DNA of 34,114 nt, taken from positions 1-34,114 of the forward strand of contig JANXUA010000145.1 of the NCBI GenBank assembly GCA_025352085.1. Reading direction: 5' to 3'. The notes under the pieces are model-generated. The model was not told the DNA's origin. It did not search any database and saw only the letters and a program-made list of their open reading frames with translations. This DNA is from Caulobacteraceae bacterium. Its GTDB lineage: Bacteria > Pseudomonadota > Alphaproteobacteria > Caulobacterales > Caulobacteraceae. Shown here piece after piece: positions 4,627-29,462 of the stretch (position 1 is its first letter; every line of letters begins with the position of its first letter). Made by a program: the position numbers and the translations under genes.

Positions 4627-5775
4627 CTATCCGCCTCGTTTCATGGTTTCCCGAGCGATCACAATCTGCTGGATCTGGCTGGTTCCCTCGTAGATGCGGA
4701 AGATACGCACGTCGCGATACAGCCGCTCAATGCCGTAGTCGGCGATGTAGCCCGCGCCGCCGAAGATCTGCACGGCGCGATCGGCGACCCGACCCACCAT
4801 TTCCGACGCATAGTATTTCGACGCCGCCGCCTCGAGTGTGACATTTTCGCCCAGGTCACGTTTGCGGGCGCTCTCAAGCGTGAGGGCGCGGGCGGCCAGA
4901 GCTTCGGTCTTGGAATCGGCGATCATGCCCTGGATCAGCTGGAAGTTGGCGATGGCCTGGCCGAACTGCTTGCGCTCAGACGCGTAGGCGACGCAGTCGG
5001 CCAGCAGCCGCTCGGCCACGCCGACGCAGATCCCGGCGATGTGCAGACGGCCGCGATCGAGCACCTGCATCGCCACCTTGAACCCCTCGCCTTCGGCGCC
5101 GAGCAAATTTTCGACGGGCACGCGGACATTTTCGAAGTTCACGTCGTGGATATGGGCGCCCTGCTGGCCCATCTTTTTCTCCGACTTGCCGACCGAAAGC
5201 CCCGTCAGGTCGCTGGGAACCAGGAACGCCGATACCCCCCCGCCGCCCTTGATGTCCGGATTGGAGCGCGCCATCACCGTGAACAGGCCCGCCCGTCTGG
5301 CGTTGGTGATGTAGCGTTTGGTTCCGTTCAGCACGTAAACGTCGCCGTCGCGGGTCGCGCGCGTGCGCACCGCGGCGCTGTCCGAGCCGGCCTCAGGTTC
5401 GGTCAGGGCGAAGGAGGTGACGATTTCGCCAGACGCGATGCCCGGCAACCATTTGGCCTTCTGCTCAGGTGTGCCGAACATCACCAGGCCTTGCGAGCCA
5501 ATGCCGACATTGGTGCCGAAGGCGGAGCGGAACGCCGGGCTCGTGCGGCCAAGCTCGATTCCGACCAGGCACTCGTCCTCCATCGAAAGATCAAGTCCGC
5601 CGTATTCCTCGGGAATAGACAGGCCGTAGAGCCCCAGGTCGCGCATTTCGCCCAGGACGTCATCGGGAATGGCGTCGTTTTCGGCGACCTGCGCCTCGAT
5701 CGGCCGCAGGCGTTCGGCCACGAATCGCCGAAGAGTTTCGATGAGGTGTTCGCGGGTGTCGATGTCTAGCGCCAT
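4627..5775 (-). CDS. Acyl-CoA dehydrogenase
   Basis: This 382-residue flavoenzyme has the normal family length. It catalyses alpha,beta-dehydrogenation of an acyl-CoA, passing electrons through FAD to electron-transfer flavoprotein, as in fatty-acid or branched-chain amino-acid breakdown. The substrate/FAD signature FALTEPEAGSD lies at 122-132. The YEGTSQIQ motif near the C-terminus contains the likely catalytic base, Glu363. The start is ATG at 5775 (MALDIDTREHL); the reading frame is open further upstream but without family-like sequence. The chain-length preference cannot be told from the sequence. A perfect 12-base palindrome at 5878-5889, about 100 bases upstream, is a candidate operator. 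The hairpin at 4571-4620 follows the stop directly. Confidence 0.92.
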   Translation of the reverse strand: MALDIDTREHLIETLRRFVAERLRPIEAQVAENDAIPDDVLGEMRDLGLYGLSIPEEYGGLDLSMEDECLVGIELGRTSPAFRSAFGTNVGIGSQGLVMFGTPEQKAKWLPGIASGEIVTSFALTEPEAGSDSAAVRTRATRDGDVYVLNGTKRYITNARRAGLFTVMARSNPDIKGGGGVSAFLVPSDLTGLSVGKSEKKMGQQGAHIHDVNFENVRVPVENLLGAEGEGFKVAMQVLDRGRLHIAGICVGVAERLLADCVAYASERKQFGQAIANFQLIQGMIADSKTEALAARALTLESARKRDLGENVTLEAAASKYYASEMVGRVADRAVQIFGGAGYIADYGIERLYRDVRIFRIYEGTSQIQQIVIARETMKRGG

Positions 5776-5953
5776 GATGATCGGCTTTCGGCTTGGGCTG
5801 GAGAATCGTCGCGCAATAAGCACAAACCGATTGTCTCGCCTATCGCCGACGGGACGATCAGCGTCACGCAAGGTTCAAGTGAATTCACTCGTTTTGTTAA
5901 CGAAGCTGTGATCAGACTCGGCTTCGCGAGGGATGACTTAGGGAGGCAATGCC
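5776..5953. promoter_or_regulatory. Divergent regulatory region with a 12-bp palindrome
   Basis: This 178-base region separates the leftward acyl-CoA dehydrogenase from the rightward His-rich peptide gene. It contains a perfect palindrome AGTGAATTCACT at 5878-5889 and a second small inverted repeat around GTTAAC (5891-5903). Both are candidate binding sites for a dimeric regulator. Upstream of the peptide gene lies a strong Shine-Dalgarno sequence, AGGGAGG at 5940-5946, seven bases before ATG 5954. I could not identify clear -35/-10 boxes. Confidence 0.4.
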
Positions 5954-6061
5954 ATGAAGACCTTTCTCGCCAAAGCCGCCGCCTCAACGGCCTTGATGTT
6001 CGCCGCCGCCAGCGCGCACGGCTGGCATCACCATCATCATTGGGATCACCACCACCATTAA
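5954..6061 (+). CDS. Secreted His-rich micropeptide (35 aa)
   Basis: The gene encodes only 35 residues. It starts at ATG 5954 behind a strong AGGGAGG ribosome-binding site with seven-base spacing. Residues 1-21 look like a classic signal peptide: MKTFLAK, then a hydrophobic alanine-rich core, then a likely cleavage site after ASA. The predicted mature peptide is HGWHHHHHWDHHHH, with ten histidines and two tryptophans in 14 residues. Such a sequence would be expected to bind Ni, Zn or Cu ions in the periplasm. That function is an inference from composition; I know no named family for it. The gene is too short for most ORF callers. It is followed 21 bases later by a strong hairpin. The ribosome-binding site, signal peptide and terminator together support a real gene. 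Confidence 0.7.
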   Translation: MKTFLAKAAASTALMFAAASAHGWHHHHHWDHHHH

Positions 6062-6082
6062 CGGGTAACGGGCGGGCGCCGA

Positions 6083-6107
6083 CCCCCTCTCGATTGGCGA
6101 GAGGGGG
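6083..6107. terminator. Strong GC hairpin, probable bidirectional terminator
   Basis: A perfect ten-base stem (CCCCCTCTCG / CGAGAGGGGG) closes a five-base ATTGG loop. It lies 21 bases after the His-rich peptide stop and 9 bases beyond the pheT stop, which reads the other way. There is no long T-run, so it may also be a member of a dispersed intergenic repeat. Confidence 0.5.
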
Positions 6108-6116
6108 AACGGGGCG

Positions 6117-8489
6117 TTAGCCGCGCAAAACGGCCCCGACCGCCTTGACCGCGGCGGCGATGATTTTGGACGACAGAGCCTCGATTTCGGCGTCGGCGAG
6201 CGTCTTGTCGCGCGGCTGGATAGTCACTTCGATGGCCACGGACTTCTGGCCCTCCACCACGCCCGCGCCTTCATAGACGTCGAACACCCGCGCCGCGGCG
6301 ATCAGCACGCGGTCAGCGCCGATGACGGCGCGAACGAGATCCTCGGCGGCGACGGACTTTTCCACCACGAACGCGAAATCGCGCGTTAGCGGCATCAGGG
6401 GCGATAGCGTCAGGGCGGACTTGGTCTTGGCCGTCTTGCGCTTGGGCTCCGGAAGGGCGTCAAGCCACAGCTCAAAAGCGTAGATCGGACCCTCCACATC
6501 CATCGCTTTCAGGGTCGCCGGGTGAACTTCGCCGAAGGCGGCCACCGCGACCTTGCCGAGGCGCAACTCGGCCGCACGACCCGGACGCCACCACGCTGCG
6601 GTCTCGCCCTGCGCGGTGCGCAGCGAGGCGGTCGGGGCGCCCAACTCCTCCAGCAGGTTCAGCAAATCCGCCTTCAAGGTGAAGAGATCGTCGCCCGGCG
6701 CCTTATCCCAGCGCTGCGCGGCGCCGGGGCTAAGAACCGCGGCGATGCTGGTGCGTTGATCTGCGGGTTCGACGCCGGCGAACACAGGGCCGATCTCGAA
6801 CAGAGCGGCGTCCTTGAAGCCGCGCTTGGCGTTGCGGCCGACCGCCTCGATCAGACCGATCAGCGCCGAAGGGCGCATGCAGTCGAGTTCGGTGGCGATG
6901 GGGTTTTCCAGCACCAGTTTCGGCTGGCCGCCGCCGAACAGGCTCGCCGTGTGACGGGCGGTGAACGACCAACCAACGGTTTCCAGATAGCCCGCCGCCG
7001 CGAGCGCGCGGCGGCCCACGCGAATACGGGCCTGGCGCGCCGTGAGGACCCCGCCGACCGCGCGGGGCATGTCGGGAAGGGGAACATCCGGCAGGTCGCC
7101 GTATCCGACGATCCGCGCGACCTCTTCGACAAGGTCCGCCTTGCCCTCGACGTCGCGGCGCCATGACGGGGGTTGGACGCGGCGACCGTCAACAGTGAAA
7201 CCGAGGGCGGTCAGGATCGCCAAGGTACGCTCCGGCGCGACATCCAATCCCGAAAGCTGCCGAACATATGCCGGATCAAAATCGATCGCTCCCCGGGGTG
7301 TCGGCGTCTCGCCGGCCACGACCACAGCCGATGCCTCGCCGCCGCACAAATCCAGAATCAGCCGCGTCGCCAATTCCACGCCCGGAACCAGTGACTCCGG
7401 ATCGACGCCGCGCGCGAAACGGTATTGCGCGTCGGAGGCGATGCCGGTGTCGCGCCCGGTCTGGGCGGCGCGGATCGGATCAAACCAGGCGCTTTCGATG
7501 AACACGTCGGTGGTGGTTTCAGAACAGCCCGTTGATGTCCCACCCATCACGCCGCCCAGGCCAATGGCGCCCGAGCCGTCGGCGATGACACAGATTTCAG
7601 GCGTGACCTGATAGGTCTTGCCGTCCAAAGCCGCCACGCGTTCGCCGGCGCGACCGAGCCGCGCCTCAATGAACCCGCCGCTGACCAGCGCCGCGTCATA
7701 GACGTGCAGCGGCCGCGCGCGGTCATAGGTGATCAGGTTGGTGATATCGACAAGGATGCTGATCGGGCGCAGGCCGATGGCTTTGAGCCGCTGCTGCAAC
7801 CAAGCCGGAGAAGGACCGTTCTTCACGCCTCGGATCAGGCGTCCGGCGAAGGCGGGGCAGGCGTCCGGCGCCGGCAAGCGGATATCGATCGGGCAGGGGA
7901 AGACGCCCGGCGTCGGCGTGACGGCCGTGTCCTTCAGCAGCCCCAATCCGGCGGCGGCCAGGTCGCGGGCGATCCCCGCCACGCCCAGCCAGTCGGGACG
8001 ATTGGGCGTGACCTCGAAATCGATCACCGCCTCCAGACCCAGCGCCCCGGCGGCGGGCGTTCCAATCGGCAGCTCGGTCAGTTCGAGAATGCCGTCAGAT
8101 TCTTCGGCGGTCTCCAGTTCGGCGGCCGAGCACAGCATGCCGTTGGAAATGACGCCGCGCACCGCGCGCGGCTCCAGGGTGATCCCCGAGCCCGGGATGA
8201 AGGCGCCGATCGGCGCGTAGATGGTGGTCAGGCCCGCGCGCGCATTGGGCGCGCCACAGACGATTTCCTTGCGCCCGTCGACCGTGTCGACCTGACAAAC
8301 CCGCAGGCGGTCGGCGTTGGGGTGCTGGACCGCGTCGATCACTTTGGCGACGGTGAAGGCGGCAAGTTTGGCGGCGGGATCGGACACATGCTCGACCTCC
8401 AGGCCGGCCATGGTCATGGCGTCGACGATCTCGGCCACCGTCGCGGTGGTGTCGAGGTGCTCTTTGAGCCAGGAAAGGGTGAATTTCAT
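6117..8489 (-). CDS. pheT: Phenylalanine--tRNA ligase beta subunit
   Basis: The 790-residue protein has the full length and domain order of bacterial PheT. It starts with the typical [14 protein letters not shown]. An OB-fold tRNA-binding domain follows at about 40-150 ([20 protein letters not shown]). Next come B3/B4 editing, B5 and catalytic-like domains, and a C-terminal anticodon-binding ferredoxin-like domain ([22 protein letters not shown]). With PheS it forms the alpha2-beta2 enzyme that charges tRNA-Phe and removes mischarged tyrosine. ATG at 8489 lies ten bases after the pheS stop, so the two subunits are made from one transcript. Confidence 0.97.
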
Positions 8490-20912: not shown

Positions 20913-21353
20913 TTGCCTGAGACGGGAACCATCCGGACGAGCCTCGTCCATCTCCTGTTCGGTTTCACGGGCCGAATTGGCCGGGCGGCCTATGGCCTTG
21001 GAACAGTCTTCAACGTCGTCTGCCCGATTTTGGCCGGTGTGGCGGCGGCGCCGACCTTCGATGCCTATTTCAATGCCTTCGCGGCGTCGGAGTCGTCGGT
21101 TCCGATTGAGGTTGCGGCCCATCTGGCCGTGATGCTGATCGGCGTCTTGGTCGGGCTCTTGGTCCTGATGGTATTCGTATGGTCAATCTTGGCCGTGCAC
21201 GTGAAACGCTGGCATGATCGCGACAAGACTTGGCTGTGGATCTTCGTCGGTCTTGTCCCACTCATTGGTCCTTTGTGGTTGATTACTGAATGCGGGTTTA
21301 TGCCCGGAAAGGCGAGAGCCGACCGATTTGGGCCGGCGCCGCCTCCATTCTAG
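20913..21353 (+). CDS. DUF805 family membrane protein (first copy)
   Basis: The 146-residue protein has the DUF805 pattern: LLFGFTGRIGRAAYGLG at the start, KRWHDRDKTWLW in the centre, and a C-terminal GFMPGKARADRFGP. About three hydrophobic segments are visible, so it is probably an inner-membrane protein. DUF805 function is unknown. The only plausible start is TTG at 20913, five bases after the pccA stop, without a clear ribosome-binding site; translation may depend on pccA. A second DUF805 gene lies 418 bases downstream. Confidence 0.8.
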   Translation: MPETGTIRTSLVHLLFGFTGRIGRAAYGLGTVFNVVCPILAGVAAAPTFDAYFNAFAASESSVPIEVAAHLAVMLIGVLVGLLVLMVFVWSILAVHVKRWHDRDKTWLWIFVGLVPLIGPLWLITECGFMPGKARADRFGPAPPPF

Positions 21354-21771: not shown

Positions 21772-22233
21772 ATGCCTTTAGCGCAACTCTTGTTCAGCTT
21801 TGAGGGACGGATCGGCCGGGGTCCATTTTGGCTTGGCACCGTCCTGGTGTGGGTCGGCTACGGTTTGGCGTTCACCGCGTTCAACGGGCTGGGTGGTTTC
21901 AGCGTCGATCTCTTTCATCCGATCAACGGGGCTGACTCGAAGAATGTGTTCCTCGAGTCGATGGGATTCGCCGCCGTGCTGATCTGTGTCGCGTTCATCG
22001 TTCGCATTGACCTGGCCTTGCAGATCAAGCGTTGGCACGACCGCGCTAAATCGGCTTGGTGGGTGTTGATCTGCATGTTTCCGGTCCTCGGTGTCCTGGC
22101 GGCCCTCATCGAATGTGGTCTGTTGCCCGGCGACGCCGGACCCAATCGCTTCGGCAAACCGGATGACGCCGCGCGCGGGCCAGCCGTCATCGGTCATCGC
22201 TTGATCGCGGGCGGGGGTGGCGCGGCCGGTTAG
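21772..22233 (+). CDS. DUF805 family membrane protein (second copy)
   Basis: The 153-residue protein resembles the first DUF805 protein: LLFSFEGRIGRGPFWLG at the start, KRWHDRAKSAWWVL in the centre, and GPNRFGKPD near the end. At least three hydrophobic segments suggest an inner-membrane location. The last 25 residues (ARGPAVIGHRLIAGGGG) are an unrelated tail. The ribosome-binding site AAGGAGG is strong, in contrast to the first copy. The AT-rich upstream gap suggests its own regulated promoter. Confidence 0.85.
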   Translation: MPLAQLLFSFEGRIGRGPFWLGTVLVWVGYGLAFTAFNGLGGFSVDLFHPINGADSKNVFLESMGFAAVLICVAFIVRIDLALQIKRWHDRAKSAWWVLICMFPVLGVLAALIECGLLPGDAGPNRFGKPDDAARGPAVIGHRLIAGGGGAAG

Positions 22234-22367
22234 GCGCGCGCCGACCGACAGAAGGCCCTTGGTGCGCGGACGGCCGCGCATGGATTTACGCGTCCGTCCG
22301 CAGCTCCGGACGCTTCCGCCAAACTGAACAACAGGATATGCCGGGCTCTCGCGCAACGGAGCCCCGT

Positions 22368-23852
22368 ATGAAAATCGAATTTGTCGCCCAGGACGCCCCC
22401 GCGGGTAAGACCTGCGCCGTGGCCGTGATCGTATTTGAAAAAGGTGGCATGTCACAGGCCGCCGAGGCGCTCGACAAGGCGTCGGGCGGGGCGGTCAAGC
22501 GGGCGATCGCCGGCGGACGGTTCGCCGGACAAATGGGACAGGTTCTCGACCTGATCGCCCTGCACGGCGTCGACGCGGCCAGAGCGGTCATCGTCGGTTG
22601 CGGCGTCAAGGACGATTTCGACGCCAAGGTCATGGAAACGGCCGCGGCGCACGCCTATCAAGCCGTCAAGGCCAGCGGCGTCGATACGCTGATTGTGCGA
22701 TTGCCAGGCGCCCCGGCGGAGGTTTCCGCCCGCGCCGCGTTCGGCGTGCGGCTGGCGGCCTATCGGTTCGACAAATACCGCACCACCGAGAAGCCGGACA
22801 AGAAACCGTCGGTGACCAAGGTCAAGATCGCCGTGGATGATCCCAAGGTGGCGGCCAAAGCGTTCAAGGCCGACAGCGGCCTGGCGGACGCCATCCTGTT
22901 CGCCCGCGATCTCGTCTCCGAGCCGGCCAACATCCTCTATCCGGAGGAATTCGCCCGCCGGGTCAAGGCCCTGACCAAGCTTGGGCTGGAAGTGGAGATC
23001 CTCGGCGAAAAGGAAATGAAGAAACTGGGCATGGGGGCCCTTCTGGGCGTCGGCCAGGGCAGCGTGCGCGAAACCCAGTTGGCGGTCATCCAGTGGAAGG
23101 GCGCCAAGGACCCCGCCGCCCAACCGATCGCCTTCGTTGGCAAAGGTGTGTGTTTCGACACCGGCGGCATCAGCCTCAAGAGTCCGGACGGCATGGAAGA
23201 GATGATCACCGACATGGGCGGCGCGGCGGCCGTCAGCGGCGCGATGTACGCCCTGGCCGCGCGCAAGGCCAAGGTCAACGCGGTCGGCATTCTGGGCCTG
23301 GTGGAAAACATGCCCGACGGCAACGCCCAGCGCCCCGGCGATGTGGTCACCACCATGTCCGGCCAGACTGTCGAGGTGATCAACACCGACGCCGAGGGTC
23401 GGCTCGTTCTTGCCGACGCCCTCTGGTATTGTCAGCAGCGGTTCAAGCCGAAATTCATGATCGATCTGGCGACCCTGACCGGCGCGATCATCATTTCGCT
23501 TGGCAAGGACCTCGGCGGTCTGTTCTCCAACGACGACAAACTGGCCGACAATCTGCTGGCCGCGTCCAGAGCCAGCGGCGACATCCTGTGGCGTATGCCC
23601 ATGCCGGCGCAATACGACAAGAATATCGACAGCGCCGTCGCCGATATGAAGAACGTCGGCCCGCGCTATGGCGGATCGATCACCGCCGCCCTGTTCATCC
23701 AGCGGTTCGTAAACAAATTGCCGTGGGCGCATCTGGATATCGCCTCGACAGCGTGGAAGCCCAACTCCACCGTGCCGACCATCCCCAGCGGCGCGACCGG
23801 TTTTGGCGTGCGTCTGCTCGACCGCCTGGTAGCCGATTGTTACGAGGGCTGA
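22368..23852 (+). CDS. pepA: Leucyl aminopeptidase (M17 family)
   Basis: The 494-residue enzyme removes N-terminal amino acids from peptides using two metal ions. The signature NTDAEGRL lies at 339-346. The metal and substrate segment VGKGVCFDTGGISLK lies about 80 residues earlier, with MITDMGGAAAVSGAMYAL just after it. The start is ATG at 22368 (MKIEFVAQDAP). An in-frame ATG at 22338 would add ten residues and would span a hairpin (GGGCTC/GAGCCC), so it is less likely. In E. coli PepA also binds DNA; I cannot tell if this one does. holC follows 13 bases downstream, a common pairing. Confidence 0.96.
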   Translation: MKIEFVAQDAPAGKTCAVAVIVFEKGGMSQAAEALDKASGGAVKRAIAGGRFAGQMGQVLDLIALHGVDAARAVIVGCGVKDDFDAKVMETAAAHAYQAVKASGVDTLIVRLPGAPAEVSARAAFGVRLAAYRFDKYRTTEKPDKKPSVTKVKIAVDDPKVAAKAFKADSGLADAILFARDLVSEPANILYPEEFARRVKALTKLGLEVEILGEKEMKKLGMGALLGVGQGSVRETQLAVIQWKGAKDPAAQPIAFVGKGVCFDTGGISLKSPDGMEEMITDMGGAAAVSGAMYALAARKAKVNAVGILGLVENMPDGNAQRPGDVVTTMSGQTVEVINTDAEGRLVLADALWYCQQRFKPKFMIDLATLTGAIIISLGKDLGGLFSNDDKLADNLLAASRASGDILWRMPMPAQYDKNIDSAVADMKNVGPRYGGSITAALFIQRFVNKLPWAHLDIASTAWKPNSTVPTIPSGATGFGVRLLDRLVADCYEG

Positions 23853-28184: not shown

Positions 28185-29462
28185 ATGCGCCGCCTCAACG
28201 CCTCCGATCCCAAATTCGCCGCCGTCTTCGCCGCCTTTCTGGCCGAGGCGCGCGGCTCGCCCGCTGATGTCGAGACGGCGGCGGCGGGGGTGATCGAGGC
28301 GGTGCGCCGCGAGGGTGTGCCCGCTTTGCTGCGCTTTTCCCAAGACTTTGACGGCGTGACGCTCGACGAGGCGGGCCTGCGCGTCTCCGAGGACGAGATC
28401 GAGGCGGGCGTCGCGGCTTGCCCAGCCGAGGTGCGGGACGCCCTGGCCTTCGCGGCGGCGCGCATCCGCGACTATCACGAGCGCCTGCGTCCGACTGACG
28501 GGCAGTTCACCGACGCGGCGGGCGTCGATCTGGGCTGGCGTTGGAGCCCGCTCGATGCGGTGGGCGTGTATGTACCGGGCGGTCGGGCGGCCTATCCCTC
28601 AACGGTGCTGATGAACGTCATCCCGGCCAAGGTCGCCGGAGTGAGCCGCATCGCCATGGTGACGCCGCCCGGCGGCGTGCAGCCGGCCGTGCTGGCGGCG
28701 GCGCGGGTTGCGGGGGTGAGCGAGATCTGGCGGGTCGGCGGCGCCCACGCGGTGGCGGCGCTGGCCTATGGCGCGGGGCCGATCGCACCGGTGGACAAGA
28801 TCGTCGGGCCGGGCAACGCCTATGTCACTGCCGCCAAGCGCCGGGTCTATGGCCATGTCGGCATCGATTCCCTGGCCGGGCCGTCGGAAGTGGTGGTGGT
28901 GGCCGACGGGGCCAACGATCCGGCCTGGATCGCCGCCGACCTCCTGGCCCAGGCCGAGCACGACCCCGACGCCCAGTCGATCCTGATCACCGACGATGCG
29001 GCCTTCGCGGGCGCCGTCGACGCGGCGATTGCGGCGCAGCTCGTCACGCTTGCCACCGCTAAGACGGCGGCGGCCTCCTGGCGCGACCATGGCGCGATCA
29101 TCATAGCGCCGCTGGACCGCGCGCCCGACTTGGTCAATCAGATCGCGCCCGAGCATGTGCAATTCGCCGTCGCCGATCCAGAGGCTCTGGCGGCGCGGGT
29201 GCGCCACGCCGGCGCGATCTTCCTGGGGCGCCACACGCCGGAAGCCATAGGCGATTACGTCGCCGGCTCAAATCACGTCCTGCCAACCAGCCGCGCGGCG
29301 CGCTTCTCGTCCGGTCTGTCGACGGTGGATTTCCTCAAGCGCACATCCATCGTGGGGTGTGACAGCGACGCTTTTGCCCAGTTGGCCGACGCCGGAGTGG
29401 CGCTGGCGGAGATCGAAGGCCTGCCCGCGCACGCCCGCTCGATGGCTATTCGTAAGAACTAG
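28185..29462 (+). CDS. hisD: Histidinol dehydrogenase
   Basis: The 425-residue enzyme catalyses the last two steps of histidine synthesis, oxidising histidinol to histidine with two NAD. PLDAVGVYVPGGRAAYPSTV, the cofactor-region KIVGPGNAYVTAAKR, the zinc-region QAEHDPDAQ and APEHVQFAV, and SNHVLPTSRAARFSSGLS are all visible. ATG 28185 gives the usual length. It starts the alphaproteobacterial run hisD - UPF0262 - phosphatase - infA. Confidence 0.97.
   Translation: MRRLNASDPKFAAVFAAFLAEARGSPADVETAAAGVIEAVRREGVPALLRFSQDFDGVTLDEAGLRVSEDEIEAGVAACPAEVRDALAFAAARIRDYHERLRPTDGQFTDAAGVDLGWRWSPLDAVGVYVPGGRAAYPSTVLMNVIPAKVAGVSRIAMVTPPGGVQPAVLAAARVAGVSEIWRVGGAHAVAALAYGAGPIAPVDKIVGPGNAYVTAAKRRVYGHVGIDSLAGPSEVVVVADGANDPAWIAADLLAQAEHDPDAQSILITDDAAFAGAVDAAIAAQLVTLATAKTAAASWRDHGAIIIAPLDRAPDLVNQIAPEHVQFAVADPEALAARVRHAGAIFLGRHTPEAIGDYVAGSNHVLPTSRAARFSSGLSTVDFLKRTSIVGCDSDAFAQLADAGVALAEIEGLPAHARSMAIRKN

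Follow-up and report, generated by a model that had tools for sequence, protein, structure and literature searches.

A short gene for a predicted exported, histidine-rich peptide in a Caulobacteraceae genome, supported by a syntenic counterpart in a close relative

Histidine-rich proteins of prokaryotes were, to go by its title, reportedly surveyed by Cheng et al. in 2013. PcoE is grouped with SilE as a comparable system, and bufferins are modified at Cys by a partner enzyme. SilE has been described as a disordered sponge of the periplasm that uses His and Met as ligands (PMC5008109). In Caulobacter vibrioides, the disordered N-terminus of PcoB, rich in His and Met, is reported to matter in copper resistance (PMC12509749); bufferins are presented as small metal-chelating peptides among the MNIO-modified RiPPs (PMC12452194), and Hpn is reported to act on nickel inside the cell, with trafficking to urease and hydrogenase (PMC4671568).

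The locus compared here with these systems lies in the window, the whole 34,114-nucleotide stretch of Caulobacteraceae DNA that was analysed, and encodes a preprotein of 35 residues, MKTFLAKAAASTALMFAAASAHGWHHHHHWDHHHH, in the frame ATG AAG ... CAT TAA at 5954-6061 on the plus strand. Its features are given below together with the counterpart gene of G004, a Caulobacteraceae MAG of the same genus.

4627..5775, minus strand: acyl-CoA dehydrogenase gene (ACAD), 382 aa, divergent neighbour (Pfam)
5893..5900, plus strand: block TTTGTTAA, kept between the window and G004 within an upstream stretch otherwise diverged (47% identity)
5940..5946, plus strand: Shine-Dalgarno AGGGAGG, 7 nt 5' of the ATG; AGGAGA at the corresponding place in G004
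5954..6061, plus strand: His-peptide gene, ATG at 5954, 35 codons, TAA at 6059-6061 (stop within the range), as translated
5954..6016, plus strand: MKTFLAKAAASTALMFAAASA, predicted signal peptide of 21 aa, its cut placed by eye
6017..6058, plus strand: HGWHHHHHWDHHHH, the mature peptide as predicted, 14 aa with 10 His and 2 Trp
6023..6059, plus strand: 18-bp tandem repeat in frame, 2.1 copies of the unit TGG CAT CAC CAC CAC CAT = W-x-H-H-H-H (Tandem Repeats Finder)
6083..6107, no strand assigned: perfect 10-bp hairpin CCCCCTCTCG-ATTGG-CGAGAGGGGG, between convergent genes, 21 nt past the peptide stop
6117..8489, minus strand: pheT, phenylalanine-tRNA ligase beta chain, convergent neighbour (Pfam)
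L023:1501-1683 in G004: counterpart gene, 60 aa, MKIFAAIVAVSTALMMAGAAGAHPHYHYWGHQHWRDHHWGHDRWGHDRWAHHHWDHRHRR, between the acyl-CoA dehydrogenase gene and pheT, as in the window

The preprotein is predicted to be split into MKTFLAKAAASTALMFAAASA and HGWHHHHHWDHHHH, and its N-terminus is signal-peptide-like, with K2, a hydrophobic core and A-S-A preceding H22. The first-pass annotation had read this stretch as an ORF for a 35-residue His-rich peptide with an AGGGAGG ribosome-binding site, a signal peptide ending in an ASA site and a mature part with 10 His in 14 residues, and the sequence reads as it claimed on each of these points. The peptide had no match to Pfam or NCBIfam at E<=1 and no paralogue within its own genome at E<=10. 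A sigma-70 promoter scan over 5700-6200 gave no match, and the sole Rfam match over 5000-7000 was sub-threshold and lay away from the gene, at 5392-5416; the kept block at 5893..5900 is a possible part of a promoter. A perfect 12-bp palindrome, AGTGAATTCACT, occupies intergenic positions 5878-5889 on the 5' side of the gene and is not kept in G004.

Frames of this type are rare both in the genome itself and in simulated DNA. The genome sample of 244,857 bases (the window plus 210,743 further bases of the same genome) was filtered for start-to-stop frames of 25-80 codons that satisfied a crude signal-peptide rule and had at least 35% His past the rule's cut. One of 5517 candidates passed, with nested starts counted separately, and this was the window gene itself, with 62% His; 4.9 Mb of simulated sequence (20 sets, second-order Markov, with the sample's trinucleotide statistics) yielded a single weak pass of 36% His. 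Because of this rarity, a chance frame of such base composition is a poor explanation, and the first-pass judgement that chance was unlikely is borne out, the one simulated frame being far weaker. We regard 5954-6061 as almost certainly a real gene, and its product as very probably exported.

G004 has the pheT end closest to that of the window (79% across the entire query; the next-closest reach 78% over part of the query, then 72% and lower), and its peptide stretch recurs letter for letter within L088 of JANXWN010000427.1. Start codon, Shine-Dalgarno sequence, signal peptide and AxA/H junction are all kept in the counterpart, and both predicted mature forms start with His after AxA. The first 15 codons align ungapped. 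Nucleotide identity is 66/97 near the dehydrogenase start, falls to 37/79 before the ATG, is 46/63 (73%) in the gene's first 66 columns and 23/42 in the tail, and is 33/57 past the stop of the window gene, a region partly still coding in G004. By hand count, the 11 differences across the 15 ungapped codons comprise 7 nonsynonymous and 4 synonymous ones, a split that is about neutral and no better. Neither peptide retrieved the other when the whole family was searched (E<=0.01 and E<=0.5), and a match between them came only at E 6.76 elsewhere; since a mutual match is absent at those thresholds, their homology rests mostly on synteny. The G004 gene qualifies as a counterpart by its place, frame, Shine-Dalgarno sequence, signal peptide and composition, rather than by a sequence score. 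The first-pass annotation had named loss of the frame, ribosome-binding site and signal peptide in close relatives as evidence against its reading: these are conserved in one relative, G004, and the peptide is not seen in the stretches inspected of 13 other congeners. Taken together, a gene for a predicted exported His-rich peptide is supported by its syntenic counterpart in G004.

Among 15 other genomes of the genus, 8 were inspected upstream of the orthologous dehydrogenase and 10 downstream of pheT, which covered G004 and 13 further genomes in stretches of ~650 to 1050 bases, with G012 covered on neither side. The peptide gene was seen in 2 of the 15 readable genus genomes (the window's and G004), and neither the ACAD-pheT junction nor such a peptide was present in the stretches of the 13 other congeners, for which a scripted scan of the same loci was also negative. 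There the dehydrogenase gene has other neighbours: a 4HBT thioesterase gene in G015 (Pfam) and, by eye, in G008, G014, G007, G013, G006 and G001, and in G005 a gene whose product has an N-terminal domain of the prolyl oligopeptidase type. Across 390 genomes of the family, protein searches matched 22 genomes with the 60-aa query (E<=0.01) and 44 with the 35-aa query (E<=0.5), and no further counterpart was found among the matches inspected (6 of 23 rows beyond the query itself for the first search, 12 of 45 for the second); diverged counterparts can escape such searches because the queries are of low complexity. Weak protein matches were inspected at ~26 loci of relatives. Several were frames within larger ORFs, others were different exported proteins or other short His-rich peptides, and only G004 was retained as a counterpart, because of synteny. 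The peptide gene is lineage-restricted and fast-evolving, ordinary in kind and unusual for its shortness and His content.

The tail of the G004 peptide is also encoded by a repeat, of 15 bp x 6.5 and in frame (Tandem Repeats Finder). Both repeat periods, 15 and 18 bp, are multiples of 3, and the in-frame units are Trp-led (W-G-H-D-R; W-H-H-H-H-H and W-D-H-H-H-H). The difference in length, 60 against 35 residues, is best read as the gain or loss of in-frame Trp/His repeat units, a process by which the size of the peptide could be tuned.

The hairpin between the convergent genes was treated separately. Its surroundings fold better than shuffled sequences (z -2.37, with 5 of 200 shuffles equally good), and it occurs as a single copy in the genome when up to 3 mismatches are allowed. 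The first-pass annotation had included it in a complete gene architecture. A perfect hairpin does begin 21 nt after the stop, as it stated, but there is no T-run (AACGGGGCGTTAG comes next), the terminator scan does not list it and it is not kept in the G004 alignment; for these reasons we did not count it in the gene architecture. Most likely the hairpin does not belong to the peptide gene; it may act for the two genes jointly where their ends converge.

Short exported-looking peptides rich in His also occur elsewhere in the family. We scanned 655,146 bases (the window plus 152 loci of the family and its order, overlaps included) for ATG frames of 28-75 codons that satisfied the signal-peptide rule and had at least 25% His; these loci are an unfair sample, because they were chosen for matching His-rich queries or adjoining anchors. 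Nine frames passed, namely the window gene, the G004 gene and seven others with lengths from 38 to 70 aa, among them MKTLLSLTLVAGLVLASASAASARPWHHHHPYFHHHHRMFMRHHPR (L154, G219) and MKAAVAALTLVLALSASVAQAYPHHHCYWRHHHRVCHR (L164, G336). An SD-like motif, which was outside the filter, precedes 9/9 of these frames versus 525/4315 of all ATG frames of such length across this DNA. The window peptide thus fits a broad kind defined by a signal-peptide-like start suggesting export, a His-dominated rest, a length below 80 aa and an SD sequence of its own. Locus L198 in G024 holds a 57-aa frame, MKTLRTALAIVVAVTGVTLMAGAAQAAPRHHHHRHHAMHHHHMKHHMRHHHHRHHRH, with its own SD and 19 His past the filter's cut. 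G004 itself has a second exported-looking His-rich protein (L012:1396-1596, minus strand, 67 aa), in which AQA directly precedes HGRHHHHHHHGMMAKHDRMGHH at the predicted cut and which likewise has an H-G start; it gave weak matches in the window's genome (best E 0.027).

A motif scan for HHHWDHxH through the DNA of an 84,980-species collection, from which records of the window's own genome were possibly left out, gave 77 places, all translated, one of them G004 (L088). Thirty of the 77 are frames of at least 245 residues with the context [TS]HHHWDHxx and, from this motif context, are read as the metallo-beta-lactamase type. On that reading HHHWDH would also occur as a zinc motif of another fold, a coincidence worth remembering. 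The scan also gave two Bacteroidota lipoprotein-like peptides and five Methylobacterium exported-looking peptides (L102, L120, L122, L123 and L143, two of these loci being in M. oxalidis), in which HHHWDH lies inside His runs. The Methylobacterium frames resemble the window peptide in their signal-peptide-like start and in the His run around HHHWDH, whereas the L102 frame is ~76 aa from its likely start and has flanking residues unlike those of the window peptide. The motif common to the Methylobacterium frames and the Caulobacteraceae peptide is likely to be convergent.

These observations suggest a simple model. Sec would export the 35-residue preprotein, and cleavage would leave a disordered chain of ~14 residues made up almost wholly of His, with two Trp as spacers. 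In the periplasm or outside, the imidazoles of this chain would capture transition-metal ions with little specificity and buffer them, as a minimal 'metal sponge'. We infer translation, export, cleavage, disorder, metal binding and buffering from sequence, and hold the role of an exported disordered metal buffer with moderate confidence, on the basis of composition, export signal and precedent. A copper site at the free N-terminal His is possible in both mature forms. The first-pass annotation had likewise proposed a periplasmic metal buffer; its exported His-rich peptide gene is supported, whereas the buffer is drawn from composition, and no gene for metal transport, resistance or efflux was recognised among 24 window ORFs scanned with Pfam. 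One possible exception is the end of a TonB-dependent-receptor barrel at 68-763, ~5 kb from the peptide gene. Adjoining the barrel end (68-766) is a gene at 789-2792, whose 667-aa product combines TPR and sulfotransferase domains. Elsewhere in the window, two DUF805 genes (20913-21353 and 21772-22233) lie in the same orientation ~400 bp apart, and a plus frame of 504 aa at 22338-23852 is a leucyl-aminopeptidase-type (M17) gene; for the 471-aa minus frame overlying it Pfam gave no match, and this frame is probably a shadow ORF.

Other accounts of the gene were weighed against this metal-buffer model. The ORF might be translated and dispensable, an orphan in decay or newly arisen at a rearrangement junction, or the remnant left by contraction of the longer G004 form. 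Its restriction to 2 of the 15 genomes inspected in the genus, with the ACAD-pheT junction confined to the same two among the stretches covered, fits such an origin, and so does the 7:4 hand count of differences; yet the start, SD, hydrophobic core, AxA/H junction and open frame have been kept, identity rises to 73% at the gene start from 47% upstream, and the repeat periods preserve the frame, so that we think this account unlikely while giving it some weight. Somewhat less probable still, in our view, is a membrane-anchored small protein in which an uncut signal peptide forms a single TM helix with the His tail outside, e.g. a regulator or a metal-presenting subunit of a transporter. The length and the hydrophobic segment permit this, and the signal peptide was judged by a crude rule, but AxA lies immediately before the His-rich stretch in the two members, and likewise in the other seven frames from the scan for short His-rich peptides, which suggests cutting.

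The Trp/His composition, along with a computed pI of 9.96 for the G004 form, would suit a secreted antimicrobial or membrane-active peptide of pH-dependent action. The window form has a computed pI of 6.85, which would leave little positive charge at neutral pH, and no immunity gene was recognised among the scanned window ORFs, though Pfam is poorly suited to recognising such genes; we consider this use of the peptide quite improbable. Runs of His codons also occur in attenuator leader peptides, of which the his operon leader is an example, and here too such a run is followed by a hairpin, with a histidinol dehydrogenase gene present in the window (28185-29462), 22 kb off. Gene order leads us to reject a leader role, to which we give next to no credence: pheT, the next downstream gene, is on the opposite strand. 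Moreover, Rfam contributes only its sub-threshold match, the hairpin is missing in G004, and a leader needs no signal peptide.

If the metal-buffer reading holds, the gene would encode a very small metal buffer, one easily synthesised. More generally, our results suggest that a signal peptide followed by a dozen His/Trp codons can persist as a gene, with its length changing by in-frame repeats, and that such short His-peptide genes turn over fast between species. The finding directs attention to further exported His peptides of small size within the Caulobacter family, some of which NCBI has already named. As a speculation that we think rather doubtful, ultra-short exported His peptides might have arisen again and again in Caulobacteraceae, with a metal capacity that depends on how many copies of a Trp/His minisatellite lie in frame; the gene in the window, the smallest seen, would then make an unmodified ribosomal chelator of ~14 residues, whose free N-terminal His could form a histidine-brace-like copper site.

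Compared by description with the systems introduced at the outset, the window peptide, whose sponge role is predicted and whose disorder is assumed from composition, would, like SilE, be a His-using exported metal sponge. SilE differs in belonging to the sil operon and in using His and Met, whereas here a lone gene encodes a tail without Met. Hpn and Hpn-2 of Helicobacter, again by description, are likewise small, His-rich and lineage-restricted. The first-pass likeness to Hpn stands for composition and goes no further, since Hpn is described as acting inside the cell (PMC4671568), whereas the window peptide has an export signal and its genome has no NiFe hydrogenase match. The large subunit of that enzyme (PF00374) was matched in 0 of 2 genomes (the window's, G000, and G004), and urease-alpha (PF00449) scored 20.8 bits in G000 and 22.4 bits in G004, both below the cut-off of 23 and over 35-37 of 121 positions. 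A role in supplying nickel to enzymes is disfavoured because of these results, though not finally, because the G004 match to PF00449 is near the cut-off and G004 is 83% complete. Bufferins share with the window peptide small size and metal chelation, putative for the latter, which differs in having no Cys; no MNIO-type partner for a bufferin-like modification was recognised among the scanned window ORFs.

Nearest in form is the NCBIfam family NF040554 (mini_HHHH, 'HHHH-motif protein', a name not found in the literature searched), which is ultra-short (model length 45) and has a signal peptide and then a His-cluster tail, as predicted for the window peptide. At its curated cut-off of 40 bits, matches in the family Caulobacteraceae include L070 (at 40.4 bits when scored as a protein, but 38.4 by six-frame search) and L191 (43.0). 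The six-frame search put 1 of 390 family genomes over the cut-off and gave some match at E<=0.1 in 156 of 390, many of those listed covering only the signal-peptide part of longer ORFs; of 14 control genomes two matched, Caulobacter vibrioides and Synechococcus elongatus, both under the cut-off. The window and G004 peptides gave no match to the model at E<=1, nor did the G000 and G004 genomes at E<=0.1, and NCBIfam returned nothing over cut-off for the peptides of L198, L060, L012 and L102. The NF040554-matching peptides inspected (L070, and below the cut-off L164 and L060) have an HHHRVC-type motif with Cys, whereas the window peptide is without Cys and has more His. The kind has therefore already been named, and the window peptide is an extreme further member of it, outside the family NF040554.
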